This document shows, piece by piece, positions 20,055 to 42,304 of a DNA stretch of 46,317 nt (position 1 is its first letter; each line of letters begins with the position of its first letter). The stretch is taken from contig JALHNB010000024.1 of the NCBI GenBank assembly GCA_022843745.1, positions 56,013-102,329 of the forward strand, read 5' to 3'. Below the pieces are notes generated by a model. It made no database searches. It saw only the letters and a list, made by a program, of their open reading frames with translations, and was not told the DNA's origin. The position numbers and the translations under genes were made by a program. Source of the DNA: Anaerolineae bacterium (GTDB lineage Bacteria > Chloroflexota > Anaerolineae > Aggregatilineales > Phototrophicaceae).

Positions 20055-20074
20055 GTCGGTTTCTCGCTTTCGCT

Positions 20075-21421: not shown

Positions 21422-21450
21422 GTCAGCCCCTTTATTTGGATATTAAAGGC

Positions 21451-22737: not shown

Positions 22738-22956
22738 ATGAGTAACGAGAGTAAAGAGACTTTACTGACGACAAATCCGATTGTTATCGATCTGGGCAAA
22801 CGCGACTCCCGATTGATACGAGAACTTAAGAACGGCAAAGGCGACCTGCTGGAAGAAGTCAATGAAATTGTGGATGAGGTCTCCGAGCAAATAAAACCCG
22901 CCGCTACTGCTGTTGAACGCGTTTACATTCCTGTCATTGTTATCGTTGAACATTAG
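22738..22956 (+). CDS. Small conserved-looking protein (DUF6200-like)
   Basis: A 72-aa cytoplasmic protein. NPIVIDLGKRDSRLIRELK is followed by an acidic/basic helix GDLLEEVNEIVDEVSE and a hydrophobic end YIPVIVIVEH. This pattern recalls short DUF6200-type proteins of unknown function, from memory and not verified. There is no signal peptide. AAAGG at 22722-22726 is 11 bases from ATG 22738 but only 5 from an in-frame TTG at 22732, so the start could be two codons longer. It is the first gene on the rightward side and may be a small partner or regulator of the cluster. Confidence 0.6.
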   Translation: MSNESKETLLTTNPIVIDLGKRDSRLIRELKNGKGDLLEEVNEIVDEVSEQIKPAATAVERVYIPVIVIVEH

Positions 22957-23108
22957 CCATCTTCAGGCGTTCCATTTGGGCGTTTTGAACATTTTCCCTT
23001 AACAGAAAGCCAATGAGTTCACCAATTGCGCTGGTTGTCATTACGTGCTATTTTGGATGATGAGTTATAAACCAATAAACTCGTCACTTGGATAAGGAGA
23101 GATTGCAA

Positions 23109-23522
23109 ATGGCAGAAAAAGCAGCAGATAAAGAAAAAGTAGCAGAAGCTGGCCCGATTGTGGTCGAGCGCCAGAAATCCGAAAAGAAAGAACGCCGTAA
23201 TCGTTTAAAAGACGTTCAGGAATCCGAAAGCAACGTTTTGAAGGCTGTGAGCCGCGTATCGGGGGCGTTGGATACAGGTGTTAACGCCTATATTGACGCT
23301 CGTGACAAGTCGGTTGCTAAAAAGGGCGACGAAGCCTTTGCCGATATTCTTCCGAACCTGGCTAAGGGTATGCAGGCGGCTATCGAAGCCATCGCGCCAC
23401 TGCCAACTGACCTTGTAAACGCTTTTTATCCTAACCGTGCGCGTGACCTGGTCGGTGATGGCGTTCGCACCGTTGGCAGCGTTCTGAACCTGAACAGCGA
23501 CAGTGACGACGACGAAAAGTAA
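23109..23522 (+). CDS. Charged 137-aa protein of unknown function
   Basis: I do not recognise this protein. Residues 1-45 are rich in Lys and Glu (EKKERRNRLKDVQESE) and probably helical. The centre is amphipathic helix (LKAVSRVSGALDTGVNAYID), followed by ILPNLAKGMQAAIEAIAPLPTDLVNAFYP and a C-terminal acidic tail SDSDDDEK. This resembles phasin-like or membrane-surface scaffolding proteins in character only. ATG 23109 has AAGGAG at 23094-23099. A TTG at 23088 in frame lacks such a site. It follows the 72-aa gene by about 150 bp and is followed by a hairpin, then by the UbiB-like gene. Confidence 0.65.
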   Translation: MAEKAADKEKVAEAGPIVVERQKSEKKERRNRLKDVQESESNVLKAVSRVSGALDTGVNAYIDARDKSVAKKGDEAFADILPNLAKGMQAAIEAIAPLPTDLVNAFYPNRARDLVGDGVRTVGSVLNLNSDSDDDEK

Positions 23523-23535
23523 ATCCCCTGAAAAA

Positions 23536-23562
23536 GTGTCTGGGAAGTTAGTTCCCAGACAC
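23536..23562 (+). terminator. Hairpin after the 137-aa protein gene
   Basis: Perfect 11-bp stem GTGTCTGGGAA/TTCCCAGACAC with a 5-base loop, 13 bp after the stop. What follows is CTCTTA with no long T-run, so it may be a weak terminator or a partial barrier that lets the two small genes be expressed more than the large ones downstream. Confidence 0.6.
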
Positions 23563-23635
23563 CTCTTAAGCATAAATAAACTTTTCAAAAACATTCTCAT
23601 TCTATTACAATACTCATATCTCATATGGCAGTGTC

Positions 23636-25582
23636 ATGCAACGTAAGGTAGCACCAACGAGGGCGATTAAACCAACGAGAGCGCCAAAAGCCTCTTGGGA
23701 AAGTGTCGTAGGCCCTATTCAACGGCGACGGTCACTGGTTACAAAAGCCTATGAAGGCATCCCTGATCTTCCGCCGATCCACCATCGTGTTGATTTTCCT
23801 GCGCCGCCGCGTGTTGTCATCTCGCGCTTGTGGCGTTGGATACACGCTTTCTTTGCTTTTGTATTCGGTACACTCCGTGATCGCTTTCATCCGGGCTTCA
23901 AGGATACCTCCGAACGCCGCGCCCACCGTCTCTATTCCATTATCAAGGAAGCTGGCGGTTCGTTTTTGAAAATCGGTCAGCAGTTGGCGATCCGGGTTGA
24001 CCTGCTGCCTTACGAATATTACAGCGCATTATCAAAATTATTTGATGAAGTTGAGCCATTCGCGTTTGAAGAAGCCGTTAAGTTAATCGAAAAAGATATA
24101 AAACGTCCGCTGGATGAGGTATTTAGTCGGTTCGACCCGGTTCCGGTTGGGTCAGGCTCAATGGCCGTCATTTATCAGGCAATCCTGCGTGAAGATGACG
24201 TAAAAGTGGCTGTGAAGGTACGCCGACCTGACATTGGCGGAGTCGTCACTGCCGATTTCAATATTATGCGCGCCCTGTTCATCGTCTTAAAATTTATTAA
24301 TTTGTTACCGCCCAATTTTACGTTTGAAGCGCTCGACGAAATCTACGACATTTTAATCGAAGAACTCGATTTTTATTGGGAAGCACGACATACCGATGTC
24401 TTCCGCACGATGGCTGAAAATGCACCGCAGGATTATTTTTCTGCTCCAAAAATTTATTTCAAATACAGCAGTGAAAATATCGTTGTTCAGGAATTTATTA
24501 CTGGAATCCCCCTTAAAGATATGCTCCTCCTCGTCGAAGGCAAAGACGAGGAGGCCCTTAAAATCATGGCGGAGTACGATATTGATCCGCTTGAAGTCGG
24601 ACGGCGCTTGCTTTGGGTCAATTACTATACCCTCTGGCGCAGTCTGTTTTTCCATGCCGACCCGCATCCAGGCAATATTATCGTTTTGCCTCACAATCAA
24701 TTGGTTTTTGTCGATTTTGGTGCTATCGGTTCACTAAGTAATAGTCTGCGCTGGTCACTTCAGCAGGTTTACGAAATGGAGTTGAACGGCAATATCGAGG
24801 GCGCAGCTATGATCGCGCTTACGTTGATGGAACCGCTGCCTGCGCTCGATGTCAATAAGCTTCTGGAAGACGTAAAGCTCGAATTTCAACGGGCTGCCGT
24901 CGCCTTGCGGAGTCGGGGTGTTCCCTGGACAGAACGAACAACCGCGCAGCTATGGTTTGGGTTCTTTCGCGTGGCGCGTAAATATGATGTACCGCTGCCC
25001 TCGGCAGTCGTGCGTATGGTGCGCGGGACGATGCTTTATGACACATTGGCAGCCCGGCTAAACCCGGAACTCGATATCCTTCAGGAATACAAACATTTTC
25101 GCCAGGATGCAGGTACCGAAGCACGCGAGAATGTGAAAATGAGTTGGGCAGACCGGCTGCGACATGGTGGATTAACACCGGACGATTACCTGCGCCTCGA
25201 ACAGCTAATGAACGAAAGTGAGCAAATTGTCTTTCAGGCACGCCGAGCGTTGAATGATGTCAATTACAACATCGCGCCGCTAGTCACGCGCCTAGCCTCA
25301 GTATTCGGGCTTCTCTACAGCGTCGGTTTCCGAATGTTTATGGTGTGGGGACTGCCATTTGCAGTAGCATATGGTTACTACTATGTCACTTTCTTCATCT
25401 CGCTGCCACCGGAACAACGTATTGTGCCCTACGTTGCGCAGCTTGCGTGGCAATCCGGTACGCAAGTCATTCTGAATTCAAACCTCTACTGGACGGTAGC
25501 ATTTTCGATCACATTTGTAATCCTTATAGTTATGGGGCGGCGACTCATGTCACGCTTATATCAGCTAGGTAACGATAACTAA
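23636..25582 (+). CDS. ABC1/AarF/UbiB-family kinase-like membrane protein
   Basis: A 648-aa atypical kinase-like protein of the UbiB/COQ8 family, members of which support ubiquinone and other isoprenoid-lipid biosynthesis through ATPase activity at the membrane. The KxGQ motif is present (FLKIGQQ, K112), as are a Gly/Ala loop VGSGSMAVIYQA, VAVKVRRP, the catalytic loop FHADPHPGNI (H340) and VDFGAIG (D360). Two hydrophobic helices near residues 545-645 form the usual C-terminal anchor. It starts 73 bp after a hairpin, and the FAAL gene begins 28 bp downstream, so it probably heads the PKS transcript. Occurrence beside a UbiA enzyme and a polyketide synthase suggests it handles a prenylated lipid product, not ubiquinone itself. 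Confidence 0.9.
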   Translation: MQRKVAPTRAIKPTRAPKASWESVVGPIQRRRSLVTKAYEGIPDLPPIHHRVDFPAPPRVVISRLWRWIHAFFAFVFGTLRDRFHPGFKDTSERRAHRLYSIIKEAGGSFLKIGQQLAIRVDLLPYEYYSALSKLFDEVEPFAFEEAVKLIEKDIKRPLDEVFSRFDPVPVGSGSMAVIYQAILREDDVKVAVKVRRPDIGGVVTADFNIMRALFIVLKFINLLPPNFTFEALDEIYDILIEELDFYWEARHTDVFRTMAENAPQDYFSAPKIYFKYSSENIVVQEFITGIPLKDMLLLVEGKDEEALKIMAEYDIDPLEVGRRLLWVNYYTLWRSLFFHADPHPGNIIVLPHNQLVFVDFGAIGSLSNSLRWSLQQVYEMELNGNIEGAAMIALTLMEPLPALDVNKLLEDVKLEFQRAAVALRSRGVPWTERTTAQLWFGFFRVARKYDVPLPSAVVRMVRGTMLYDTLAARLNPELDILQEYKHFRQDAGTEARENVKMSWADRLRHGGLTPDDYLRLEQLMNESEQIVFQARRALNDVNYNIAPLVTRLASVFGLLYSVGFRMFMVWGLPFAVAYGYYYVTFFISLPPEQRIVPYVAQLAWQSGTQVILNSNLYWTVAFSITFVILIVMGRRLMSRLYQLGNDN

Positions 25583-25610
25583 ATCCACAGACTAAATAGG
25601 GGGGATGGTT

Positions 25611-27740
25611 ATGAGCAAATATAGTGCTAACCAATTTGGAAGTTTAGTGGAAGTTTTGCGCTGGCATAGTCATGAGCTTGCAGATGAGGTTTCTGTAAGC
25701 TTCCTGGTCGATGGCGAAGATGATGAACAATCGCTCACCTATCGCGAACTCGATCAACACGCCCGTGCGATTGGCGCATGGTTACAGGATCAGGGTGCGC
25801 AGGGTGAGCGCGTACTCCTGCTTTACCCACCCGGCCTCGAATACATCACGGCTTATTTAGGATGTCTCTACGCGGGAGCGATTGCCGTACCCGCGTACCC
25901 GCCGCGCCGCCGCGAACCCACCAAACGCCTCGAAAGCGTCGTGACGGATTGTGATGCCCGATTCATGTTTACCACGCAGGCCATCACCGATCTGATCCAT
26001 ACGCGGTTTGAAGAAAATTCGGCCTTCTCGCCGATGAGACGTCTGGTGACAGAAGATGTTCCGCTCGATGCAGCCAGCACATGGAAAATGCCGAGTATCA
26101 AGCCAGATGACATCGCATTTCTGCAATACACATCCGGCTCGACATCCGCACCCAAAGGCGTGATGGTCACACACGGAAATCTGATGAGCAACGAGCATGT
26201 GATCCAGGAAGCCTATGAGCATGTGCGCCCGGTTTTCGTGAGTTGGCTGCCGATGTATCACGATATGGGTCTGATCGGTAATCTTTTGCAACCGCTCTAT
26301 ACAGGCGGACGCACGGTTGTCATGTCCCCCACCGCGTTTGTGCAGCGCCCATATCGCTGGCTGAAAGCTGTCTCAAAATACCGCTGCGATACCACTGGCG
26401 GGCCGAACTTTGGTTACGAACTCTGCACCACCAAAATCACCGAAGAAGAAAAAGCCACACTCGATCTGAGCAGTTGGTCGATTGCTTACAACGGCGCTGA
26501 ACCGATTCGCGCCGACACCCTGCGCGAATTTACAAAAGCATTTGAACCCTATGGCTTCTCCCCTGAAGCCTTTTATCCCTGCTATGGCCTGGCCGAAGCA
26601 ACCTTGTTCGTGACAGGCGGGCCAAAAGGTCACTTGCCGACCTACGCAACGTTTGATTCCGCAGCTTTGGAGAAGAATCTCGTTCAACCCGTTACCGTTG
26701 CGAACAAAAATGCGCGTGAACTGGTTGGATGCGGTCCGGCCTGGGGTCAAACCGTGAAGGCTGTCAATCTCGACACGCTGACAGAAACGAACGGAGTTGG
26801 CGAAATCTGGATTCACGGCGGAAACGTCACTAAAGGTTATTGGGGAAACTCACAGACCACTGCCGACACATTTGAAGCCTATTTGCCCGACGGCGAAGGG
26901 CCATTTTTGCGCACGGGCGACCTGGGCTTTGTGAAGGACGGCAACCTTTTCGTGACAGGCCGTATCAAAGATTTGGTCATCATTCGTGGACGCAACCATT
27001 ACCCACAGGACATTGAGTTGACGGTTGAACGCAGCCATCCGGCGCTGCGTCCCGGCTGTGGCGCGGCGTTTTCGGTGGATGTGAATGGTGAAGAGCAGCT
27101 TGTCATTTTGCAGGAAATTGAGCGCGAACACCGCATGAATTTTGATGCCGACGCGATTTTCTCAGCCATTGTCGGCGCGGTCATGAAAGAACATCAGATT
27201 CAAATCCACGCCATCGCCCTGCTGAACACGCTGTCGATCATGAAAACATCCAGCGGCAAAATCCAACGTCGCGCGAATCGTCAAGCATTTTTGGAAAACA
27301 CGCTGGAAACCGTCGCCACATGGTCAGCGCCAAAAGAAACACCCGCACCCGCCAAAGCAAAAAGTCAGTTCAGCGCGGCACAGGTCGAACGTTGGATCAT
27401 GGACTGGATGGCGACCAATCTGCAAATTCCACGTGCCAGAATCACACGCAATAAAGCATTCGCGGAATACGGCATGGACTCGATCAAAGCCGTCGAGTTT
27501 GCCCAGGCGCTGGACACATGGCTCGAAGGCCGTGTGGTACTGGACGAAGTAACGGCGTGGGACTTCCCGACGATCAGCGAACTCACCGAATACATTGTCA
27601 GCAGTCTGTCGGGTGAACATCCAAACGGTAATGGCAACGGAGCGCATTCATCGTCGCCACAAAATCTCAATGAAGTTTCAGATGACGAAATCGCACGCCT
27701 GCTTTCAGAAGAGATCAAGGCACTAAGGAATCAGCCTTAA
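25611..27740 (+). CDS. Fatty-acyl-AMP ligase fused to acyl carrier protein (FAAL-ACP)
   Basis: A 709-aa loading enzyme. The FAAL domain (about 1-575) activates a fatty acid as acyl-AMP and passes it to a carrier protein. Motifs are LQYTSGSTSAPKGVMVTH, VSWLPMYHDMGLIGNLLQPL, YNGAEPIRADTL, FYPCYGLAEATLFV and GRIKDLVIIRGRNHYPQDIE. A C-terminal ACP (about 590-665) has the phosphopantetheine Ser624 in YGMDSIKAVEF. The tail DDEIARLLSEEIKAL looks like a docking element. ATG 25611 is preferred over 25605 because the G-rich ribosome-binding stretch then stands at a workable distance. Two bases separate it from PKS1. This places a fatty acid as the starter unit for the assembly line. Confidence 0.95.
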   Translation: MSKYSANQFGSLVEVLRWHSHELADEVSVSFLVDGEDDEQSLTYRELDQHARAIGAWLQDQGAQGERVLLLYPPGLEYITAYLGCLYAGAIAVPAYPPRRREPTKRLESVVTDCDARFMFTTQAITDLIHTRFEENSAFSPMRRLVTEDVPLDAASTWKMPSIKPDDIAFLQYTSGSTSAPKGVMVTHGNLMSNEHVIQEAYEHVRPVFVSWLPMYHDMGLIGNLLQPLYTGGRTVVMSPTAFVQRPYRWLKAVSKYRCDTTGGPNFGYELCTTKITEEEKATLDLSSWSIAYNGAEPIRADTLREFTKAFEPYGFSPEAFYPCYGLAEATLFVTGGPKGHLPTYATFDSAALEKNLVQPVTVANKNARELVGCGPAWGQTVKAVNLDTLTETNGVGEIWIHGGNVTKGYWGNSQTTADTFEAYLPDGEGPFLRTGDLGFVKDGNLFVTGRIKDLVIIRGRNHYPQDIELTVERSHPALRPGCGAAFSVDVNGEEQLVILQEIEREHRMNFDADAIFSAIVGAVMKEHQIQIHAIALLNTLSIMKTSSGKIQRRANRQAFLENTLETVATWSAPKETPAPAKAKSQFSAAQVERWIMDWMATNLQIPRARITRNKAFAEYGMDSIKAVEFAQALDTWLEGRVVLDEVTAWDFPTISELTEYIVSSLSGEHPNGNGNGAHSSSPQNLNEVSDDEIARLLSEEIKALRNQP

Positions 27741-27742
27741 AG

Positions 27743-30700
27743 ATGTCGATTGATTATCGTTCGCTTCTTAAAGATGCCTACATTGAACTCAAAGCGCTGC
27801 GTGAAAAACTCGCTGCTGCACCACACGCCGAACCGCTGGCGATCATCGGGCTTGGCTGCCGTTTTCCCGGCGCAGCCAATCCCGATGCTTTTTGGCGCTT
27901 GCTGCTCAACGGCGAATGGCACGCCCGCGAAATTCCCCCTGAACGCTGGGATATGGCGGCCTATTTTGACCCAGAGATCGGCAAAAGCGGCTCGATCAGC
28001 GTAAAACTGGCGTGTTTGCTGGATGAAGTCGATACTTTTGACGCGCCTTTTTTCGGGATTTCCCCGCGTGAAGCCCGCCGGATCGACCCACAGCAGCGCT
28101 TGATGCTGGAAATCGCCTGGGAAGCACTGGAATATGCCGGATATAACCCGCTGGCGCTCAATGGCAGCAAGACGGGCGTTTATATCGGTGTCAGCAACAG
28201 CGATTACAACGTTATGCAGATCGAGCCGAAAGATCAGATTGATGCTTATGTCGGAACGGGCAGTTCACGCAGCATCACGGCAAATCGTATCTCTTATACA
28301 TTAAATCTGCGCGGCCCCAGCCTGATTGTGGATACCGCTTGCTCGTCGTCGTTGGTGGCGCTGGACATGGCGGCGAAAAGTCTGCGCACGGGCGAGATCG
28401 ACATGGCGCTGGTCGGCGGCGTAAATCTGATTCTGTCGCCCGAATCGAGCATTACGTTTTCGCAAGCGCAAATGCTGGCGGCGGATGGGCGCTGCAAAAC
28501 TTTTGACGCGAAAGCCGATGGTTATGTGCGCGGCGAAGGTGCAGGCGCGGTGGTCGTCAAACGCCTGAGCGACGCGCTCAAAGCGGGCGACAATATTCTG
28601 GCTGTCGTTCGCGGCACGGCTGTGAATCAGGATGGACGCAGCAACGGCCTGACCGCCCCCAACGGCGGCGCACAGGAATCCGTCCTCCGGCAGGCGTTGG
28701 CAGAAGCGGAACTCACACCAGCCGACATAGATTATATTGAAGCACATGGCACAGGCACATCGCTCGGCGACCCGATTGAAATGTCCGCACTTGGGCGGGT
28801 TTACAGCAGTGGACATAGTGCCGAAAATCCACTTTTGGTCGGCTCCGTTAAAACCAATATCGGCCATCTGGAAGCGGCGGCGGGCATCGCGGGTCTGATT
28901 AAGGTCGTCCTCTCGCTGCATCATGGCATCATTCCGGCACATTTGCATTTCGAAACCCCTAGTCCTTATATCGCCTGGGATCGTTTGCCCATTCGAGTGC
29001 CAACCGAACAAACAAATTGGCCTCATCAGAATACTATCTATCGCGCGGGACTGAGCAGTTTCGGCTTTGGCGGGACAAATTCGCACGTCATCGTCGAAAG
29101 TGCGCCGCTTGTCGAGCCACGCCAAAATCTCGAACATTCGGAATATATTCTGAAGCTCTCCGCACTCGACAACATGGCGCTTCAGGACATGGCAGGCCGT
29201 TATGCGACGGCGCTGACCGAAAGCGATGCGTCGCTCAATGATATTGCCTATACTGCCAATGTCGGACGCGCGGATTTCGAGCAGCGTCTGGTCGTTGTAG
29301 GCATGGATAAAAACACGCTAGGTGAATCGCTGGCACTGTTTGCGCGAAACGAAACCAGTCACACAATATTCAGCGGTCAATTTGACCCGAATCGCTCGCC
29401 GGAAGTCGTCTTTTTATTTACTGGGCAAGGCGCTCAATATGTTGATATGGGGCGCAAACTTTACGAGGCCGAGCCAATTTTCCGCGAGTCTCTCGATCAG
29501 GCGGCGGCAATTCTTGACGAATATTTGCCTACGCCGCTGTTAGACGTTTTATTTTCAACTGATTCCAGTCTGATTGATGAGACACAGTACACGCAAACAG
29601 CATTGTTCGCATTCGAATACGCGCTGGCGCAGTTATGGCTGTCATGGGGCGTTCTCCCAGCAGCGATGACCGGACACAGCGTCGGTGAGCTGGTCGCGGC
29701 ATGTCTGGCAGGTGTATTCAGTCTCGAAGACGCGCTCAAATTGGTAGCGGCGCGGGGTAAATTAATGCAAGCGCTCCCGCGAAACGGTGGCATGGTCGCC
29801 GTTTTCGCCGACGAAGCGACAGTCAGGCCGCTGATCCAGCAATATGCGGAATCCGTTTCAATCGCGGCGGTCAATTCACCATCGGAAACGGTCATTTCCG
29901 GCGCACAAGAAGCGCTGTCAGCCATCACCGCGCAGCTCGATGTAAAAAATATTCGTCACCGTGCCCTCACAGTTTCACACGCTTTTCACTCACCGTTGAT
30001 GGACGCGATGCTCGAAGATTTCCGCAAGGTGGCGAAAACAATCACGTATCATGCTCCCGAAATCGCGCTCATTTCGAATTTAACGGGTAAATTTGTCGCG
30101 TCCGACATGGTGACAACGCCCGATTATTGGGTGCAGCATGTGCGTGGTACAGTGCGTTTCGCAGACGGCTTGCGGAGTTTATTCAACGCTGGGTATCGAC
30201 TATTTTTAGAAATCGGCCCAAGCCCTGTTCTGTCAGGAATGGGCCTGCGTACATTGTCGGACACTGATGCCGTTTGGATTCCTTCATTGCGTCCACCGCG
30301 ATTCGAACTGGTACAAATGCTGTCCTCACTGGCGACGCTTTACGTTAATGGCGCGTCCGTCGCTTGGGAAAACTTGTACGACGGATGTCCAACACCGCTG
30401 CCGACCTATCCCTTCCAGCGTGAGCGCTATTGGTGGCTGGATGGAATCGAAATGAGCGATGCGCCTGCCGAAACGCGCCACTACGAGCCGCGTATTTTGC
30501 CAGCGTCAGTCAATAGTCATGTCAATGGCAGTGCGCCGAAGCAGATAAGCGGCAGTGATTTCGTTCAGGCATTAGCCACTGCAACACCCAAAATGCGACA
30601 TGACCTGCTGATTGATTATTTGCGGACGCAAATCGCGCAGGTTTTGAGTATGCCCATCGGCAAGATCAGCCCACAGCACCGATTTTTTGACCTGGGTATG

Positions 30701-33700: not shown

Positions 33701-36178
33701 CAAATGGTCACGAATCTGGTTTTACAGGATTGGCTGCGGCTGACCGATAACCATGCGCAAACGCTGCAAACCATTTTGACTCCTGATGTGGAAAACACTA
33801 CCGTCCTCGAAATCACGACTTTTGATTCTGTGGGCGATAACTGGCATTCACTGGCGACTGGGCAACTCGCCCCAGCAAGCAACTCAAGTGATATAACCAC
33901 ACTTGCCGGCTTACAAGCGCGTATCCAGCAGCCGATTGACGCGGCGCATCATCCCGATTTCCAATGGGAAAATGTCCGTGTAGACGCTTGTTTTGGCAAT
34001 GCAGGCGAAATTCTCGCTAAACTCAGCGGCGAAACGCAAATCGCAGCCCTGTTCAGCCGCTCACTGAGTCTGATCGGCAATGTATCGCTTATTCCCGTTG
34101 CGTTGGAAAGTATCACCCAATATAGTGCGCTGTCTGAAGTCGTATGGTGTCACGTAACTCGCGAAATCGGCGAACGTTTGACACTGACCATTTACGATGA
34201 GCAAGGCACGATCATTCTCGTTGCATATGGAATCGAACTTGCTCCGCTGCCCGCGCATATCTCGCAGCAAGCACAGTGGTCAACGCTCAATAACTGGTTC
34301 TACGACATCGAATGGCAGCAAAAGACACTCAATACCGCGAAAACCACAAATGCCCATTGGCTGATTTTCGCGACTGAAGCAGATCACGAGTGGATTTCAA
34401 TATTTGAGGCGCAGGGAATAATCGCTCAGATTATTTTGCCAGGTGATACTTACGAACGAATCGACTCACACCACTGGCAAATCAACCCCAGCAGCCGTGA
34501 AGATATACGCCGTGTGTTGACTGAAGCAGTGTTTGATGCCGTCGTTTATCTGTGGTCAGCCGCCGAAACTCAAACATCGCTGACCTTTAATCGCCTGATG
34601 GATTATCAACAATCAACGATGGCCGCCGCACTTAATCTGGCTGCCCTGCTGCCGGAAGTGACGACTGGTAAGCCGCATTTATGGCTGGTAACACGCGGGG
34701 TTGAGCCTGTCGCACAGCACCCTGTTGGCGAGATGGGCTTGTTGCAAGCGCCGTTGTGGGGATTAGGCCGCGTGATGATGCTCGAACATCCTGAAAATTG
34801 GGGCGGGCTGATTGACCTTGAAGCGATTCCCCAGGCAAACGAAGCAGAAATATTAATTCGCGAAATCAACGGCGGTGACGACGAAGACCAGATCGCCTAT
34901 CGCTCCGACAAGCGCTATGTCCCACGCCTGATACAGCGCGATCTGCACCAGCATACGTTGAAGTCGTACTATTTCCGCGATGATACCAGTTACCTGATTA
35001 CGGGCGGCCTGGGCAAACTCGGCCTGAATGTCGCCGCGTGGATGGTCGAGCAAGGCGCGCGCCATCTTACTCTCACCAGCCGTCAAGGGCTAACGCAAAG
35101 CGATGCAAAATGGGAAGCCATTCGTCAGCTCGAAGCACAGGGAGCAATCATCACTATCGCGGCGGTGGATGTGACTGGTACAGACCAGATGGAAGCGCTG
35201 TTCGCACAGTTTGGCGATACACTGCCGTCGCTGGCAGGTATCATCCACATGGCGGGTGTTATCCAGCCGCAGTACATCGCCGAAATGAGCGCTGAATCAC
35301 TCTATGCGGTGCTGCAATCCAAAGTTCAGGGGACGTGGGTGTTACACACCCTCAGCCAACACCTGAATCTCGATTTCTTTGCGCAGTTCTCGTCCGCAGC
35401 GGCGACCTGGGGTTCGGCGATGGCCGGACATTACGCGGCAGCGAATCATTTTCAGGATGTATTTGCGCACTACAGACGCGCTCGAAATTTGCCCGCACAG
35501 GCCATCAACTGGGGCTGGTGGGAAGGCGGCGGCATGGTCACAGCCGAAGAGCAAACCTATTTTGAGGCGATTGGCCTGAAAACCATGCCCGCGCAAACGG
35601 CTCTCAGCGCTTTGGGTCACCTACTCGAACAAAACACCGCACAGATGACCGTTGCGCCTGTCGATTGGATTCGCTACAAGCCTGTTTTCGAGGCCAGACA
35701 CACACGTCCATTTTTAGCCGAAATCCGCACCGAATCAGCCAATGAAAACAAGATCATCTCCACCGAGGGGGCGGATTTATTGGCGCAGCTTGCTCCCCTC
35801 TCCGCCGAGATGCGTTTGATGCGCATGGTCGAATATCTCGGCGCGATCATTGGCAAAATTTTACGCCTGCCCGCTGCTGCCAATATTGATCCCGGTCAGG
35901 GCTTCTTCGAGTTGGGCATGGACTCGCTCACCAGTGTCGAGCTTAAACAAACACTTGAACGGCAATTCGGGCTGCAACTGCCCGCGACAATTGCCTTCGA
36001 ATTCGCAACACCCGATGCGCTTGCAAGCCATTTGCTGACTCTGCTTCTGGACGATGCGCCAGTGAGCAGCACGATCAGCACACCCGCAGAAACCACCAGC
36101 GCGGATGACGATTTAGACGGCCTTTCCGACGACGAACTGCTGGCGCTGCTGGCAAGCGAACTCAATAATGGAATTTAG
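27743..36178 (+). CDS. Type I polyketide synthase, two modules: KS-AT-ACP-KS-AT-DH*-KR-ACP
   Basis: A 2811-aa cytoplasmic megasynthase that adds two malonyl units. After a coiled N-terminal docking segment, KS1 has C200, H335 and H375; AT1 has S646 (GHSVG) and HAFH at 746, the malonyl-specific signature; ACP1 carries S988. Module 2 has KS2 C1221, AT2 S1662 and HAFH at 1762. Residues about 1935-2190 sit where a DH belongs and begin LLGRRIRTP, but the HxxxGxxxxP motif is absent, so it is marked DH* as inactive. KR at about 2415-2590 has TGGLGKLGL, S2551, Y2564 and N2568. W2556 and lack of the LDD motif fit an A-type KR. ACP2 carries S2728. The C-terminal tail LSDDELLALLASEL resembles that of the FAAL. 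Confidence 0.95.
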   Translation: MSIDYRSLLKDAYIELKALREKLAAAPHAEPLAIIGLGCRFPGAANPDAFWRLLLNGEWHAREIPPERWDMAAYFDPEIGKSGSISVKLACLLDEVDTFDAPFFGISPREARRIDPQQRLMLEIAWEALEYAGYNPLALNGSKTGVYIGVSNSDYNVMQIEPKDQIDAYVGTGSSRSITANRISYTLNLRGPSLIVDTACSSSLVALDMAAKSLRTGEIDMALVGGVNLILSPESSITFSQAQMLAADGRCKTFDAKADGYVRGEGAGAVVVKRLSDALKAGDNILAVVRGTAVNQDGRSNGLTAPNGGAQESVLRQALAEAELTPADIDYIEAHGTGTSLGDPIEMSALGRVYSSGHSAENPLLVGSVKTNIGHLEAAAGIAGLIKVVLSLHHGIIPAHLHFETPSPYIAWDRLPIRVPTEQTNWPHQNTIYRAGLSSFGFGGTNSHVIVESAPLVEPRQNLEHSEYILKLSALDNMALQDMAGRYATALTESDASLNDIAYTANVGRADFEQRLVVVGMDKNTLGESLALFARNETSHTIFSGQFDPNRSPEVVFLFTGQGAQYVDMGRKLYEAEPIFRESLDQAAAILDEYLPTPLLDVLFSTDSSLIDETQYTQTALFAFEYALAQLWLSWGVLPAAMTGHSVGELVAACLAGVFSLEDALKLVAARGKLMQALPRNGGMVAVFADEATVRPLIQQYAESVSIAAVNSPSETVISGAQEALSAITAQLDVKNIRHRALTVSHAFHSPLMDAMLEDFRKVAKTITYHAPEIALISNLTGKFVASDMVTTPDYWVQHVRGTVRFADGLRSLFNAGYRLFLEIGPSPVLSGMGLRTLSDTDAVWIPSLRPPRFELVQMLSSLATLYVNGASVAWENLYDGCPTPLPTYPFQRERYWWLDGIEMSDAPAETRHYEPRILPASVNSHVNGSAPKQISGSDFVQALATATPKMRHDLLIDYLRTQIAQVLSMPIGKISPQHRFFDLGMDSLMAEQIKNRLQIDLGHTLSVTLVFDYPTIGKLADYLLRDILKLDDAAQRTRRTKRRDLTEPIAIIGIGCRFPGGANTPEGYWQLLINGVDAIQDVPASRWNANDYFDSDPAALGKMYVKAGGFLSQPVDEFEPLFFGISPREAASMDPQQRLLLEVAWEALENAGQAPSQLEGSRTGVFVGINTNDYQNLITAAGLDTIDATMATGNTFSAASGRISYILGLQGPSMAIDTACSSSLVSIHLAAQSLRSGECDLALAGGVNLMLSPMTTIALSKLRALSPDGRSKTFSNEADGYGRGEGAGVIVLKRLSDAQANGDTILALVRGSAVNQDGASGGLTVPNGPAQVAVIESALADSNLTPDAVDYIEAHGTGTILGDPIEVNSLVAALSEGRSPDRPILIGSVKANIGHLEAAAGIAGVIKLVLAMREHTLPPHLHFEQPNQNINWSELPLQVLTEARTWEANGKTRIAGISSFGFSGTNAHIILEEALTAPEIIARMERPAHLLTLSARSETALQTLAQRYREYLLKNPNVSLADVAFTTNAGRDHLNYRRAFLADSVDTLVKQLENPNPFAQTQRELPPITFLFTGQGAQSPNMLRELFETSPTFRQTVEICAGILNDHMDAPLLSVLFPDDENDMRIHQTAYTQPALFVVEYALAQLWLAWGIEPDALMGHSIGEYVAACLAGVFSLDDALKLVAARGRLMGALPQNGGMAALFISEADTQEILALYDNSISIAGVNSPTETVISGLQSTLDEVLADCDALGLRYQRLQVSHAFHSALMEPMLAEFEAVASTMTYSPPHTRIISNVTGQFATAEQITNAAYWVQHTRAAVRFADGLQALYDNGARLFLEIGPRPTLTNIGQRVISDPAVSWLSSAHPRRSNWESMLTSLATLYETGFNVNWRGFNADYPRRKIALPTYPFERQRYWFEAPRKIAKTAQVEISTSDSLLGRRIRTPLKQQLYENFVSADQGTVTMYESRWLEIGAYAQMALEAVQPGQMVTNLVLQDWLRLTDNHAQTLQTILTPDVENTTVLEITTFDSVGDNWHSLATGQLAPASNSSDITTLAGLQARIQQPIDAAHHPDFQWENVRVDACFGNAGEILAKLSGETQIAALFSRSLSLIGNVSLIPVALESITQYSALSEVVWCHVTREIGERLTLTIYDEQGTIILVAYGIELAPLPAHISQQAQWSTLNNWFYDIEWQQKTLNTAKTTNAHWLIFATEADHEWISIFEAQGIIAQIILPGDTYERIDSHHWQINPSSREDIRRVLTEAVFDAVVYLWSAAETQTSLTFNRLMDYQQSTMAAALNLAALLPEVTTGKPHLWLVTRGVEPVAQHPVGEMGLLQAPLWGLGRVMMLEHPENWGGLIDLEAIPQANEAEILIREINGGDDEDQIAYRSDKRYVPRLIQRDLHQHTLKSYYFRDDTSYLITGGLGKLGLNVAAWMVEQGARHLTLTSRQGLTQSDAKWEAIRQLEAQGAIITIAAVDVTGTDQMEALFAQFGDTLPSLAGIIHMAGVIQPQYIAEMSAESLYAVLQSKVQGTWVLHTLSQHLNLDFFAQFSSAAATWGSAMAGHYAAANHFQDVFAHYRRARNLPAQAINWGWWEGGGMVTAEEQTYFEAIGLKTMPAQTALSALGHLLEQNTAQMTVAPVDWIRYKPVFEARHTRPFLAEIRTESANENKIISTEGADLLAQLAPLSAEMRLMRMVEYLGAIIGKILRLPAAANIDPGQGFFELGMDSLTSVELKQTLERQFGLQLPATIAFEFATPDALASHLLTLLLDDAPVSSTISTPAETTSADDDLDGLSDDELLALLASELNNGI

Positions 36179-36180
36179 CG

Positions 36181-39100
36181 ATGAGTGAAGCGCAAAATAT
36201 TCTCAAGCGTTCGTTGGTCGAACTGCGCGACCTCCGCGCCCGTTTGCAGGAGGCCGAGCGCGTCCGCACCGAGCCAATCGCGATTATCGGCATCGGCTGT
36301 CGTCTGCCAGGGGGAGTGAATGACCCTGAAAGCTATTGGCAGCTATTAAACAGCGGTGTGGACGGTACTCGCGACATTCCCGCCGACCGCTGGGATGTAG
36401 ACGCTTTTTATGATCCCGACCCCAACGCCCCCGGCAAAATGTACGTGCGGCGCGGCGGATTCCTCGACGAAATCGCAAATTTTGATCCGCACTTTTTCAA
36501 TATCCCGCCGCGTGAAGCGCAGAGTATGGATCCGCAACATCGCTTGGCGCTGGAAGTGGCCTGGGAAGCACTGGAAAATGCCGGGATCGCGCCTGACCAG
36601 CTTGCGAATACGCCGACTGGTGTCTTTATCGGTATCACGAGTTATGACTACGCGCAACGCATCTTACAAACGATGGAATTGAGCGCCCTTGACGCTTATG
36701 TCAGCACGGGCAATCCGCTGAATTTTTCGGCGGGTCGCATTTCGTATCTGCTCGGCTTGCAGGGGCCAAGCATCGCGCTCGATACGGCCTGCTCGTCGTC
36801 GCTGGTTTCGGTACATCTGGCCTGCAACAGCCTGCGTCTGGGTGAATCTCAGGTGGCGCTGGCGGGTGGCGTAAACCTGATGATGATGCCCGAAACGATG
36901 GTCACATTGGCGAAAGCCAAGATGCTGGCGGCTGATGGACGCTGCAAAACATTTGATGCCAGCGCCGATGGTTACGGACGCGGCGAGGGCTGCGGGATGC
37001 TCGTCCTCAAGCGCCTGAGCGATGCCTTAGCCGATGGTGACAATATCTGGGCGGTGATTCGCGGCTCGGCGGTCAATCAGGATGGCCCCAGCAGCGGCCT
37101 GACCGTCCCCAATGGGCAGGCACAGCAGCAGTTGATTCAAACGGCGCTGAAAAATGCCCGAATCGACGCAAACGAGGTCGCTTATGTCGAGGCACACGGC
37201 ACAGGCACATCGCTCGGCGATCCTATTGAACTTCGCGCCCTGAACGCCGTGCTTGGGCGAGAACGCCGTACAGACCAGCCACTGATTGTCGGCTCGGTCA
37301 AAACCAATCTCGGTCATTTAGAGGCAGCGGCGGGTGTCGCGGGCATTATTAAAGTCGCGCTCTCGCTGCATCACAACCAGATTCCGCCGCATCTCAATTT
37401 GAAAACGCCCAATCCGAATGTGAATTGGGAGTCGCTCAATCTGCGTATCCCGCACATGCTCGAATCCTTCCCGCAGTATGGCGAAAAACGATATGCAGCG
37501 ATCAGCGGTTTTGGAGTCAGCGGCACGAACGCGCATATCATTCTCGAAGCCGCGCCGGAAATTATCACGCAGCCATCGGCGGTAGAACGCCCAACGCACA
37601 TTTTGACGATTTCCGCGCCCCATGCGGAATCGCTACCGGAATTGGCGCAAGCTTATGCGCAGCAGATCAACTTCGATTCGGAAAAGCTGGCTGATATGGC
37701 GTACAGCGCCAATATTGGCCGCGCACAATTTCCGCACCGATCAGCGTTCGTGGCAAATTCAGCGTCAAATTTACGCGATCAGCTAGGTGAATTTGCTGCC
37801 AGCGGGATAACCGCGCTCATGGGCGAAGTTCGCCCCGGTCAGCGTCCGAAATTGGCATGGTTATTTACGGGGCAAGGCGCACAGGTCAGCGGCATGGCGC
37901 ACAAGCTGTACGACACGCAGCCGATTTTCCGCACGGCACTCGACACCTGCGCCGAAATTTTGAAGCCTCAATTGGAACACAGCCTGCTCGATGTGCTGTT
38001 CAATACCGACTTAAGTGATGAACTCGATCAAACGATATACACGCAGCCCGCCCTGTTTGCCGTTGAATACGCGCTGGCGCAGTTGTGGATGTCGTGGGGT
38101 GTGCAGCCTGCCGCCGTCATCGGTCACAGCGTTGGGGAATATGTGGCGGCTTGTATCGCGGGCGTGTTCAGCCTGGAAGACGGCTTGAATCTGATCGCGA
38201 CGCGCGGACGACTCATGCAAAAGCTCCCATTAAATGGACGCATGGCAGCGGTTTTCGCGGACGCGGCAACGGTTGAAAATGCAATTCAGCCTTATGCCGC
38301 AACCGTCTCGATTGGCGCGTATAACGGCCCACAAATGACGGTCATTTCGGGTCTGGATACTGATATTCAGCGCCTGATTGACGATTTTGCAGCACAGGGT
38401 ATTACCGCACGGGATTTGCGCGTTTCCCACGCTTTTCACTCACCACTGATGCAGCCAATTCTGGATAAATTTACAACCGTTGCCCGCAAAATCCAATATC
38501 ACGCCCCGCGAATTCCAATTATTTCCAATGTCAGCGGCACAATAGCAAAAGAATTCAACACCGATTACTGGGTGCAGCATATTCGCCAGCCAGTACGCTT
38601 CCAACAGGGATTGCAGGCGATTTATGAGGCGGGCAGCCGCGTCTTTTTGGAGATCGGCCCCAGACCAACCCTGATAGGCATGGGCAAGCGCATTGTGACC
38701 GAGTCCGATGTACGCTGGTTGGCCTCGCTCGATGGCAGCGACGATTGGGAAAGGATGCTGCACAGCCTCGGTGCGCTATACACATTAGGCGTTCCGGCCA
38801 ATTGGAAAGCCTTTGATGCACCCTACACGCGACGAAAACAGCGTTTGCCGAATACACCCTACCAACGCCAGCGCTATTGGATTGGCGAGGGAAATAGCAT
38901 CACTTCCCGCCGCGCCGTGATGCAGGCTCAAACGAGCAGGCATCCTTTGCGGGGACAGCGCTTAAAATCGCCGCTCATCCAATACGAAACGGAACTTTCC
39001 CCCCAATCGACTACGCTGATAGACCAGCATATCATTTACGGCAGTCACGTCCTCCCCGGTATCATCTGGATTGAGATGGGCATGGCAGCACACGGCGGCA

Positions 39101-41286
39101 TGGACGAGGCTTTGACATTCAGCCTGGAAAAATTCACACTCCGCCAGCCGATTATTTTTAGCGACGATGCCCATTACACCGCACAAATCGTGGTGACGGC
39201 TGACCATGTGGATATTTACACCCAATATGGCGACGACTGGCATCTCAACGCCAGCATGGAACTACATGTGAATCCGGCGCTGCCCGCGCACACCGAAACC
39301 TATTCGGCAGGGTCGATTCAAAAACGCGCCACCGAAAATTACAGCGCCGAACATTTTTATGCGAACGTCTGGCATCCCGATTTCTACCTCGGCGAAAGTT
39401 TCCGCTGCGTCGAGCATATCTGGCGGCGTGACGGTGAGGCGCTGGCGCGGATGCACATGCCGCGCAACATCAAAGGCACGAACGTCCGCCCGGAACTGCT
39501 GCTTCTCGATGCCTGTGTGCAGGTGATTATCGCCGCGATGCCTCCGGAATTTGAAAAAGGCAACGTTTACATCGGATTTGGGCAGGAATACACGCGCATT
39601 TATCGTCCATTTGGCGAAAATGAGGCTGTCTGGTGTCAGGCGGTGCTGCAATCCGAAAACCTCGACAGCGGCACGATTACCGGATCACTCACTATTTTCG
39701 ATAATAATGGCGCATTGATCGGCGAATTGAGCAATGTCACCTATCGCCGCGTCAGCCGTGAGGCTCTGATTCAGTCGGCAAGAGTGATGCCACGCCGCGA
39801 AATCAAGGCCGTCAGCAAAATTTCGCGCACTGCGTTGATGGCACTGCCGATTACTCAGCGTCCAGCAGCTATCCGCGATTACCTTTGCGAACTGGTCGGG
39901 CAGGTGACAGGCATGGGCGCGGCCAAAATCGACCCCCAGCGTTCCTTGCTGGATATGGTCGATTCGCTGATGAGCGTCGAGCTTCGAACGAACATCGAAC
40001 GTGATTTACAGGTCAATATTCCGCTTTCCGAAATACTCGGTGGGCAGAGCATCAACGACATTGCGAATACCCTTCTGCTCCAGCTAGGCGATGCTGTACC
40101 AATAGCATCGGACGATGATGGCATGAGCATCGCTGAAATGCAGGCATTAGCCGTCCTGCCGTCGGATATTCAGCCGGAGCTTTCAGATTGGGAAAATCGG
40201 CAGCTAAAATCAATCTTCCTTACAGGCGCAACCGGATTCGTCGGTGCGTTCCTTCTGGCAGAACTTTTAAAGCAGTCCTCAGCCGACATTTACTGCCTCG
40301 TCCGTGCTGAAACCGAAGAAATCGCTCACCAACGTTTGCGCGAAAATCTCGATTTTTACCAGTTATGGAACGAGTCCTATCGCGAACGGATTAAGCCCAT
40401 CCCCGGCGATCTGACGCAGCCACACCTGGGATTGAGTAAAGAAGCTTTTGATTCACTAGCGCAAAATATTGACATGATCTGGCACTGCGGCGCGTCGGTA
40501 AAATGGACGTATCCTTATGCAGCCCTCGCCCCGGCAAATGTCGAGGGAACGATTGAAATTCTGCGGCTGGCGACGCAGGGCAAAACCAAGCCGCTGCATC
40601 ACGTCTCAACCGTCGGCGTTTTTTCGTCACGTGCATTCGATGGTCAAACGATCACCGAATCAACGCCGTTGGACGCAGGTGGCGCTCTTTATACGGGTTA
40701 TGCGCAAACCAAGTGGGTATCCGAAGCGCTCATGCGGGAAGCAGCGGAACGGGGATTGCCTGTCAATATTTATCGCATCAATACCGCCGGGGACAGCCGT
40801 ACTGGAATTTACAACCCCCACGATTATCTTCCACTGCTGTTGAGGGGCTGCATCGAACTCGGCAGTGCGCCGGATGATCTCGACCTCGTCGTTCAAGGTG
40901 CTCCCGTTGATTTCGCGGCGGCGGCGATGGTGTATCTGTCATCTCAACCGAACTTGATTAACCAGACTTACCATATCGTCAACCCACAAGGCATGACGTG
41001 GCAGGCAGTTGTTGCCGCCTTGCGCGAATCGGGGCAATTATCGCATACTATAAGTTATCAGGAGTGGCAAGCACTCGTTAAGGCTCAAAGCCAGCAGGAT
41101 AGCCAATTTGCGCTGGCAGGGCTTTCGGCGCTGTTTACGGGGGCATTTCCGAGCCAGACCCATCTGCCATTGTTTGATAACCATAATGTCATCGAGGCGT
41201 TAAAAGAAACCAACTTGGTCTGTCCACCATTCGATGCCGGGTTACTAGCGCGTTACCTGGCGCATTTTCAAGCAGTAACGCGATAA
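36181..41286 (+). CDS. Type I polyketide synthase, terminal module: KS-AT-DH-ACP-thioester reductase
   Basis: A 1701-aa megasynthase for the third extension and release. It starts 2 bp after PKS1, with a coiled N-terminus. KS has C204 in DTACSSS; AT has S650 and HAFH at 750, so malonyl-CoA. The DH looks active: H950, G954 and P959 in HIIYGSHVLP, and D1110 with Q1114 in LLDACVQ. No KR is present. The ACP has S1262, but its motif reads LLDMVDSLMSVEL, one residue short of the usual GxDSL. The C-terminal reductase (about 1340-1690) has LTGATGFVGAFLLAELL and Y1507/K1511 in GYAQTKWVSE, typical of NADPH-dependent thioester reductases that free the chain as an aldehyde or alcohol. Confidence 0.95.
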   Translation: MSEAQNILKRSLVELRDLRARLQEAERVRTEPIAIIGIGCRLPGGVNDPESYWQLLNSGVDGTRDIPADRWDVDAFYDPDPNAPGKMYVRRGGFLDEIANFDPHFFNIPPREAQSMDPQHRLALEVAWEALENAGIAPDQLANTPTGVFIGITSYDYAQRILQTMELSALDAYVSTGNPLNFSAGRISYLLGLQGPSIALDTACSSSLVSVHLACNSLRLGESQVALAGGVNLMMMPETMVTLAKAKMLAADGRCKTFDASADGYGRGEGCGMLVLKRLSDALADGDNIWAVIRGSAVNQDGPSSGLTVPNGQAQQQLIQTALKNARIDANEVAYVEAHGTGTSLGDPIELRALNAVLGRERRTDQPLIVGSVKTNLGHLEAAAGVAGIIKVALSLHHNQIPPHLNLKTPNPNVNWESLNLRIPHMLESFPQYGEKRYAAISGFGVSGTNAHIILEAAPEIITQPSAVERPTHILTISAPHAESLPELAQAYAQQINFDSEKLADMAYSANIGRAQFPHRSAFVANSASNLRDQLGEFAASGITALMGEVRPGQRPKLAWLFTGQGAQVSGMAHKLYDTQPIFRTALDTCAEILKPQLEHSLLDVLFNTDLSDELDQTIYTQPALFAVEYALAQLWMSWGVQPAAVIGHSVGEYVAACIAGVFSLEDGLNLIATRGRLMQKLPLNGRMAAVFADAATVENAIQPYAATVSIGAYNGPQMTVISGLDTDIQRLIDDFAAQGITARDLRVSHAFHSPLMQPILDKFTTVARKIQYHAPRIPIISNVSGTIAKEFNTDYWVQHIRQPVRFQQGLQAIYEAGSRVFLEIGPRPTLIGMGKRIVTESDVRWLASLDGSDDWERMLHSLGALYTLGVPANWKAFDAPYTRRKQRLPNTPYQRQRYWIGEGNSITSRRAVMQAQTSRHPLRGQRLKSPLIQYETELSPQSTTLIDQHIIYGSHVLPGIIWIEMGMAAHGGMDEALTFSLEKFTLRQPIIFSDDAHYTAQIVVTADHVDIYTQYGDDWHLNASMELHVNPALPAHTETYSAGSIQKRATENYSAEHFYANVWHPDFYLGESFRCVEHIWRRDGEALARMHMPRNIKGTNVRPELLLLDACVQVIIAAMPPEFEKGNVYIGFGQEYTRIYRPFGENEAVWCQAVLQSENLDSGTITGSLTIFDNNGALIGELSNVTYRRVSREALIQSARVMPRREIKAVSKISRTALMALPITQRPAAIRDYLCELVGQVTGMGAAKIDPQRSLLDMVDSLMSVELRTNIERDLQVNIPLSEILGGQSINDIANTLLLQLGDAVPIASDDDGMSIAEMQALAVLPSDIQPELSDWENRQLKSIFLTGATGFVGAFLLAELLKQSSADIYCLVRAETEEIAHQRLRENLDFYQLWNESYRERIKPIPGDLTQPHLGLSKEAFDSLAQNIDMIWHCGASVKWTYPYAALAPANVEGTIEILRLATQGKTKPLHHVSTVGVFSSRAFDGQTITESTPLDAGGALYTGYAQTKWVSEALMREAAERGLPVNIYRINTAGDSRTGIYNPHDYLPLLLRGCIELGSAPDDLDLVVQGAPVDFAAAAMVYLSSQPNLINQTYHIVNPQGMTWQAVVAALRESGQLSHTISYQEWQALVKAQSQQDSQFALAGLSALFTGAFPSQTHLPLFDNHNVIEALKETNLVCPPFDAGLLARYLAHFQAVTR

Positions 41287-41304
41287 AGTTCTTTTGGTTT
41301 AACG

Positions 41305-41330
41305 GCGTGGCCGCGTGAGACGCACCACGC
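41305..41330 (+). other. Nested hairpin between PKS2 and the UbiA gene
   Basis: Outer stem GCGTGG/CCACGC encloses inner stem GCGT/ACGC with a 3-base loop, a GC-rich structure directly followed by TTTA. It could act as an attenuator or partial terminator 19 bp after the PKS2 stop, lowering UbiA expression relative to the synthases. The UbiA gene has its own strong ribosome-binding site beyond it. Confidence 0.5.
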
Positions 41331-41368
41331 TTTAAGCAACAGGTCGGTTATTTAGGGAGGGGATTATC

Positions 41369-42262
41369 ATGCAGTCTGTCAATAATGCTGGTTTCATAAC
41401 CGAAGCCCAACGAGTATTGATTCATGGGCGTTGGCCGGTTCAATCTTATGTCGTTTTAGGCTTTTTATTCGGGGCAGTCGTCACTCGCCATCCACTTAAT
41501 CTTCAATACATCGTGGCATTCTTCGCCTGGCTGATGATCGTCGTCGGGCTGACGGTGCTGAATTCGTATTACGACAAGGACGAAGCACCCGTCGGTGGGA
41601 TGCAGAATCCGCCGAAAGTGAATGAATCGCTGCTTTACGGCTCATTGATCCTGATCGTAGCCGGTTTAGCGCTGTCAATCCCATTTGGGGCGACATTCCT
41701 AGGGCTGGCGGTGGCGGTTGTCGTCTTCTATTTCTTCTATTCATATGATGGCACACGCTGGAAATCCAACGGCTATGCGGCTGTCGCGATTAACGCACTG
41801 GTCGGCGCACTGTCCGTCATGGGCGCAGCATCTCTGCGCGGCAGCCTGACCTCGCCGGAAGTCATTGCGGCGACATTGTGTGCAGCGGCGTTCAAAGCCT
41901 CGGTCTATTCGATGATGCAGGTGCATCAGATCGAGGAAGACACCGCACGTGGTGATATTTCATTCGCGGTGATGCACGGGCGGCAGCGAACACTGCGTTT
42001 TTCGCAGGTTATGATGCTGATCGCGGGTATCTGCGCGACCCTTTCGACTTATCTGGTGGGCATCCATCCGATCCTGCCAATCCTCACAGGCGGCTATTTC
42101 CTCATGAGCGTCGTCTTCTTTGAGGTCTGGATTCGCAAAACCGGAGATGTCCGGCTGGATTCCCTGCGGATGCAGCGCATGATTTATTACACGGGTTATG
42201 TGGGCAGCATTTCGTTCTTTGTGATGTATGTCTTCATGGCAGCAACAGGCGTTTTCGGCTAG
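41369..42262 (+). CDS. UbiA-family prenyltransferase
   Basis: A 297-aa polytopic membrane protein with about eight hydrophobic segments. The two diphosphate/Mg-binding motifs of UbiA enzymes are visible: LNSYYDKDEAP (Asn and Asp residues of the first) and HQIEEDTARGD (second), though the first is somewhat diverged. Family members attach an isoprenoid from its diphosphate to an aromatic ring or other acceptor. AGGGAGGGG before ATG 41369 is a strong translation start. It is the last gene of the cluster, followed by a clear terminator. By context the acceptor is likely the PKS product, but chlorophyll, heme-O or quinone roles cannot be excluded from motifs alone. Confidence 0.88.
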   Translation: MQSVNNAGFITEAQRVLIHGRWPVQSYVVLGFLFGAVVTRHPLNLQYIVAFFAWLMIVVGLTVLNSYYDKDEAPVGGMQNPPKVNESLLYGSLILIVAGLALSIPFGATFLGLAVAVVVFYFFYSYDGTRWKSNGYAAVAINALVGALSVMGAASLRGSLTSPEVIAATLCAAAFKASVYSMMQVHQIEEDTARGDISFAVMHGRQRTLRFSQVMMLIAGICATLSTYLVGIHPILPILTGGYFLMSVVFFEVWIRKTGDVRLDSLRMQRMIYYTGYVGSISFFVMYVFMAATGVFG

Positions 42263-42273
42263 ACACAGCTCTC

Positions 42274-42304
42274 AAGGGGCAAGGTAGGCTTGCCCCTTTT
42301 ATTT
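42274..42304 (+). terminator. Rho-independent terminator ending the PKS/UbiA cluster
   Basis: Perfect 10-bp stem AAGGGGCAAG/CTTGCCCCTT with a 5-base loop, then TTATTT, 11 bp after the UbiA stop. It marks the right boundary of the cluster's transcript. Confidence 0.9.

Follow-up and report, generated by a model that had tools for sequence, protein, structure and literature searches.

A lineage-restricted Chloroflexota gene cluster predicted to make a prenylated polyketide lipid

The locus analyzed here places a polyketide assembly line, headed by a fatty-acid-AMP ligase (FAAL), between proteins of the UbiB and UbiA families, and raises the question of whether these genes form one pathway and what it makes. 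The original prediction was a dedicated system in which a fatty-acid-derived polyketide is prenylated in the membrane by UbiA while the UbiB-like protein handles the hydrophobic intermediate. The window, i.e., the whole stretch of 46,317 bp that was analyzed, covers positions 56013-102329 of contig 24 in a genome of 7.96 Mb, and its end is the end of the contig. We favor the reading that this is a biosynthetic cluster, restricted to one lineage, for a prenylated polyketide lipid; its domain content suggests a 6-alkylsalicylaldehyde prenylated by UbiA, and we give this reading a probability of roughly 0.4.

Gene content and predicted assembly line

Every gene named in the original prediction was recovered as an open frame on the forward strand between 22738 and 42262 (open frames and Pfam). 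The run starts with a DUF6200 protein of 72 aa (22738-22956; PF19702, 6.4e-13), which opens a trio that includes UbiB. It is followed by a second small protein of 137 aa, probably helical (23109-23522), whose only match is a sub-threshold one to DUF6277 (0.0083), and by the UbiB/ABC1 atypical kinase-like protein, which has a hydrophobic C-terminal segment (23636-25582; PF03109, 6.8e-51). Then come the FAAL-ACP, the starter loading protein (25605-27740; PF00501 at 1.7e-69, PF23024, and the PP-binding domain PF00550), two polyketide synthases, PKS1 (27743-36178) and PKS2 (36181-41286), and the UbiA-family membrane prenyltransferase (41369-42262; PF01040, 2.1e-18). The intergenic gaps are 22 bp between UbiB and FAAL, 2 bp between FAAL and PKS1, 2 bp between PKS1 and PKS2, and 82 bp between PKS2 and UbiA. 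An intrinsic terminator closes the run on the same strand (42274-42298; 10 pairs, 6 of them G-C, tail TTATTT). It had been called strong, and it has the most pairs among the 25 terminator-like sites listed, a count at the level of shuffled sequence (24.1). Divergent from the cluster, on the reverse strand (18582-22371), lie a DyP-type peroxidase (PF21105, 1.6e-11) and two proteins of 448 and 306 aa without Pfam or NCBIfam match at 0.001. We considered these three genes as possible members and left them out of the cluster because they have no counterparts on the three contigs of the related genome described below.

The two synthases hold three modules (Pfam and active-site motifs). PKS1 comprises module 1 (KS-AT-ACP) and module 2 (KS-AT-psiDH-KR-ACP), and PKS2 comprises module 3 and a reductive release domain (KS-AT-DH-ACP-TR). 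Active-site motifs are present in all three KSs and all three ATs, and every AT has HAFH, which we take to be a malonyl signature. The module 2 DH (psiDH, 33503-34312) lacks a DH family match and is 24.5% identical to the module 3 domain (8e-9). It had been marked with an asterisk, rightly so: the motif HxxxGxxxxP is absent from it, both in the window and in the PKS1 of the related genome, and present in the module 3 DH. The sole KR of the line is in module 2 (34988-35524; PF08659, 8.5e-59; S-Y-N residues and GGLGKLG). The DH-fold domain of module 3 (DH3, 38896-39825) carries H950xxxGxxxxP and D1110xxxQ in a module without KR. The C-terminal thioester reductase (TR, 40213-41274; Pfam, GATGFVG, and YxxxK) scores 318 bits with TIGR01746, for a cut-off of 213. 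As for the loading protein, its best named NCBIfam models are fatty-acid-AMP ligases, with up to 437 bits but below their cut-offs, and an apparently FAAL-kind AMP-binding domain stands beside an ACP and PKS genes. The same genome has further type I PKS gene sets on contig 57 (5 KS places) and contig 17 (2 strong KS places).

The order of the modules (unreduced; KR only; DH-fold without KR; reductive release) appears to be that of the 6-methylsalicylate synthase (6-MSAS) programme spread over three modules, and we predict a 6-alkylsalicylaldehyde. FAAL would load a fatty acid onto its own ACP. Module 1 would add a malonyl unit without reduction, module 2 would add another and reduce the new ketone to an alcohol, and module 3 would add a third without reduction, giving R-CO-CH2-CHOH-CH2-CO-CH2-CO-S-ACP. 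This is the oxidation pattern of the 6-methylsalicylate tetraketide. The DH-fold domain of module 3 might then assist water removal and ring closure, a C2-C7 aldol closure with loss of two waters leading to a 6-alkylsalicyl thioester. The TR would release the 6-alkylsalicylaldehyde (or the alcohol), and UbiA would add a prenyl chain in the membrane. The module content appears to fit a tetraketide programme of the 6-MSAS type, in which a single ketoreduction occurs on the triketide. It departs from a 6-MSAS-type PKS in that there is no single iterative KS-AT-DH-KR-ACP module, and the line has three modules in two proteins. We infer both the ring formation and the prenylation.

Conservation in a second genus and the place of UbiB

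Our searches found the PKS1-PKS2-UbiA linkage in two genera, and the cluster in two genomes. The second is G137, a metagenome-assembled genome of another genus in the family of the host. Its contig 342 carries first the end of a loading protein, which has an acyl-CoA dehydrogenase domain followed by an ACP, then PKS1 and PKS2, and, 71 bp after PKS2, a UbiA 57% identical to that of the window. Since a second genus shares this order, the linkage between PKS and UbiA is not a matter of chance. The PKSs of G137 have the same domain pattern as those of the window, and each KS is most similar to its positional counterpart on the contig (KS1 70%, KS2 66.5%, KS3 67.5% identity). AT2 breaks this positional pattern, with 48% identity to AT1 and 47% to AT2. 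The KR is 43% identical and DH3 41%, whereas most of psiDH could not be aligned (28% over 50 aa). Both DH3 motifs, H950xxxGxxxxP and D1110xxxQ, are kept. The acyl-CoA dehydrogenase domain lies before the ACP of the G137 loading protein (L028:14726-16924) and is lacking in the window copy; it would give an alkenyl side chain. A further contig of G137, 376, begins with a second, slightly different UbiA piece (L029:1-408) followed by a TilS gene, and this piece may represent a second gene copy or strain variation within the assembly.

Among 151 genomes of the order, eight have a UbiA match at E ≤1e-5, the host included, and apart from the host only G137 exceeds 50% identity. Among 346 genomes of the class, 11 have a match at E ≤1e-15, again with the host, and the others are 28-34% identical; G137 is missing from these matches and is therefore evidently outside that sample. 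A UbiA profile run over 400 genomes of the phylum retrieved only the host genome at E ≤1e-25, G137 being possibly outside this sample too. Two UbiA peptide patterns, which would miss diverged relatives, were searched across 84,980 species, each represented by a single genome: they matched 32 stretches, of which the two confirmed are both in G137. The plasmid search with UbiA gave nothing useful. As for the reductase end, 10 of the 346 class genomes, besides the host, have TR-ended PKSs matching at E ≤1e-40, with at most two candidates scored per genome. These were rejected as relatives: none of the seven contexts covered (17-20 kb each, 14 UbiA queries; G455, G028, and G061 were left out) has a UbiA. 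Four class members have single proteins of 3,209-3,432 aa with FAAL, KS, AT, ACP, and a C-terminal TR (L082, L083, L084, and L085); the weakly FAAL-like segments in between are probably adenylation domains, and the proteins resemble assembly lines for lipopeptide aldehydes.

The place of UbiB in the pathway is a different matter. The protein belongs to the UbiB/ABC1 superfamily (ABC1 domain, KIGQ for KxGQ, VAVKV, HADPHPGN, and DFG), and its nearest solved sequence is 5yjz. It falls short of the ubiquinone-synthesis equivalog, with 218.5 bits for a TIGR01982 cut-off of 487.55. The only sign of an anti-phage role for UbiB, weak matches to PADLOC PD-T4-6 (2e-5), likely reflects the shared kinase fold. 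At E ≤1e-50, this UbiB occurs in 3 of the 98 genomes of the family, i.e., the host, G137, and G099, a genome of a third genus, and each time the two small proteins precede it. In G137, contig 110 breaks off within a UbiB that shares 53% identity with that of the window and is preceded in the same order by a DUF6200 protein (40% over 67 aa) and a second small protein (53% identical). An adenylation domain searched in G137 with the window FAAL as query gave no match at E ≤1e-20, as expected if the FAAL, when present, falls in the gap between contigs. Contigs 110 and 342 are thus consistent with one broken cluster. In G099, the identities are 32% for the DUF6200 protein (57 aa), 32% for the second small protein (87 aa; matched by blastp and missed by tblastn with the default filter), and 40% for UbiB, whose kinase motifs are kept. 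No such PKS or UbiA was found in the trio region of G099, in 40 kb from the contig start, and this genome is absent among the UbiA matches of the search in the order. The neighbors of its trio resemble an acyl-CoA/AMP ligase (24% identical to the window FAAL), a thiolase, and a hydroxyacyl-CoA dehydrogenase, the latter two calls being made by eye from residues.

Because the G099 trio occurs without PKS or UbiA nearby, we regard UbiB as a separable module, and its role as a dedicated part of the pathway is weakened. UbiB and the small proteins might thus be functionally unrelated and merely adjacent, leaving a pathway of FAAL, PKS, and UbiA only. This is a serious contender, if short of even odds: to G099 one can add G478, another Chloroflexota genome, whose DUF6200 gene (L065:898-1173) lies on a 5.5 kb contig without UbiB match, while the 22 bp that separate UbiB from FAAL in the window, and a G137 trio that stops at a contig edge in the way a missing FAAL would fit, speak for a connection. 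An unrelated UbiB would still be compatible with the prenylated salicylaldehyde reading, where UbiB is the least secure element; in that reading, UbiB and the two small proteins would form a separable unit and might assist in handling a hydrophobic product. Hence, the original prediction stands in part. UbiA goes with the PKS genes, in the same order in two genera, and relatives in which UbiA and UbiB are never linked to the PKS genes, the pattern that would have told against the prediction, were not what was found; the dedicated handler, in contrast, is not supported as stated. A prenylated polyketide is a reasonable reading for FAAL-PKS-UbiA and a weak one for UbiB. Other searches on the trio added little. 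The AF2 model of the second small protein is weak (pLDDT 63), DUF6200 had no mention in the literature search, and in plasmids DUF6200 gave nothing useful and the second small protein a single match (E 0.7). UbiB matched 167 plasmid records, all below 60% identity and each over less than 80% of the protein.

Proposed ring closure and the acceptor of UbiA

The proposed cyclization would depend on what DH3 does. Its nearest solved relative by profile is the DH of CurJ (8.1e-28), and it does not group with the bacterial PT of AviM: 7VWK is not among its profile matches up to E 10, in a searched copy that may lack this entry. DH3 is closest to ordinary DHs and has no AviM PT match, and therefore it bears no sequence mark of a cyclase. 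Several features count for the salicylaldehyde: the ATs carry the malonyl-type HAFH, the sole KR is in module 2, the DH of this module is dead, and DH3 has an intact motif in a module without KR, a pattern that G137 shares. By analogy, AviM, where a DH-like domain closes a C2-C7 ring, and the fungal route to orsellinic aldehyde point the same way. Against the prenylated salicylaldehyde reading as a whole count the ordinary look of DH3, the distance of UbiA from enzymes of known acceptor, a linkage that rests on two genomes, and the position of UbiB and PKS on different contigs in G137. The loss of the module 2 DH motif and the retention of the DH3 motif in both genomes would fit the ring, and also a plain dehydration.

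The product could instead be linear, a polyketide aldehyde or alcohol built on a fatty acid (hydroxy-diketo or enone), with DH3 dehydrating the hydroxyl made by module 2 and UbiA prenylating an O or C of this chain, or a lipid head group. An ordinary-looking DH3 agrees with this, as does the presence, among the solved proteins closest to UbiA in profile and fold searches, of the archaeal digeranylgeranylglyceryl phosphate (DGGGP) synthase, an enzyme that prenylates the alcohol of a lipid precursor. Yet without a KR in module 3, DH3 has no beta-hydroxyl of its own, and an enone flanked by a 1,3-diketone would be prone to cyclization. We find the linear product rather doubtful.

The acceptor of the cluster UbiA cannot be read from its sequence. 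The protein is a member of the superfamily (PF01040 at 67 bits for a cut-off of 34.2, two Asp-rich motifs, and an all-helical membrane fold match), with subfamily motifs like NSYYDxDE and EDxARGD (here NSYYDKDE and EDTARGD). It does not score as a 4-hydroxybenzoate or DHNA prenyltransferase of the UbiA or MenA equivalogs, the best NCBIfam score being 35.2 bits for 269. It lies far below the cut-offs of all NCBIfam prenyltransferase models, and none of known acceptor is close. By profile, its nearest solved relatives are the DGGGP synthase (2.8e-6) and a UbiA homolog (2.3e-4); a model of modest quality (pLDDT 68) suggests a fold match to the DGGGP synthase 6m31 and to AfUbiA. The host genome has five other UbiA-family genes, two of which (L003 and L004) were scored as fragments from an internal start. 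They include a heme O synthase (CyoE/CtaB type), a MenA (108 bits for a cut-off of 102, scored on a fragment), and a decaprenyl-phosphate phosphoribosyltransferase type. We thus rejected the genome's quinone enzyme as the simplest reading of the cluster UbiA, which, given the MenA- and heme-O-synthase-type genes elsewhere, is an extra enzyme. This, together with the PKS1-PKS2-UbiA order kept in G137 and the polyprenyl diphosphate synthase genes found at two places in the host genome, counts for the UbiA step of the prenylated salicylaldehyde reading. That UbiA is instead a neighbor with a separate role, e.g., in quinone or membrane lipid synthesis, and the polyketide is never prenylated, is improbable: 12 distant UbiA loci in 11 genomes (7-20 kb each; the weaker matches L010-L014 and L016 left out) show no match to the window PKS, FAAL, or UbiB, and three methyltransferases with UbiE/COQ5 match, from two genomes, stand among the 10 neighbor proteins scanned from 8 of these 12 loci, but the 57% homolog also sits behind PKS2 in G137, and the two G137 pieces are the only homologs above 34% identity that we saw.

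Significance and known systems

If the reading is true, prenylated alkylsalicylaldehydes, which are quinol-like lipids with two tails, would have a bacterial route, and a UbiB protein would stand beside a defined non-ubiquinone pathway. A three-module system would also separate the role of the DH-fold in ring closure from iteration. The most complete version, in which a fatty-acid-primed and reductase-released line of the 6-methylsalicylate type, unrolled into three modules, feeds UbiA, with a UbiB-type lipid handler, to give long-chain prenylated salicylaldehydes as quinol-like membrane lipids with an origin separate from that of the fungal ones, is, taken whole, rather unlikely. A literature search on FAAL, UbiA, PKS, salicylate, and reductase, mainly in open-access titles and abstracts, found no description of such a cluster. 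It is apparently a new combination of known parts, seen in two genomes.

Both UbiA and UbiB share their superfamilies with the quinone enzymes, and differ from them in that UbiA is far below all equivalog cut-offs and UbiB has 218 bits where TIGR01982 asks for 488. In 6-MSAS chemistry, the reduction pattern is that of a C2-C7 tetraketide ring, and the module content of the cluster appears to provide the reduction pattern needed for it. FAAL-PKS systems of the micacocidin and massiliachelin type make an alkylsalicyl product with an iterative PKS. In fungi, ascochlorin is a prenylated benzaldehyde with its own pathway, in addition to that of the hericenones.

The closest bacterial precedent for the ring is AviM, described in the accessible text as a KS-AT-PT-ACP enzyme that has no KR in its module and closes a C2-C7 ring by means of a DH-like domain; a change at its H949 shifts the product to a pyrone or lactone (PMC9135731). 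Module 3 has the same layout, KS-AT-DH/PT-ACP without KR (PMC9135731). Unlike 6-MSAS and AviM, the line has three separate modules rather than one iterative module, a FAAL starter, and reductive release, and the sequence of DH3 is not close to the AviM PT. Micacocidin and massiliachelin synthesis also starts with FAAL-ACP followed by KS-AT-KR-ACP, but, in the available parts of the two reports, the PKS feeds an NRPS and has neither reductase release nor UbiA (PMC6604713, PMC10291242). Loading of PKS lines by FAAL-ACP is common to FAAL natural-product pathways, whose products, according to a FAAL review, include micacocidin and alkylresorcylic acid; the main text of this review contains none of prenyl, UbiA, thioester reductase, or Chloroflex (PMC11837247). 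The PKS clusters of heterocyst glycolipids likewise have a PKS with thioester reductase, there HglB, and differ by having no UbiA or FAAL in the portion of the source available (PMC8073705). Finally, in the hericenone pathway, a fungal PKS and a carboxylate reductase give orsellinic aldehyde, the core of a meroterpenoid, with a putative prenyltransferase (PMC11643632). That pathway differs in being fungal and in using a separate reductase enzyme, and FAAL and UbiB are unmentioned in the accessible text (PMC11643632). In its logic of polyketide synthesis, carboxyl reduction to an aromatic aldehyde, and prenylation, the route proposed here would resemble this known fungal one.
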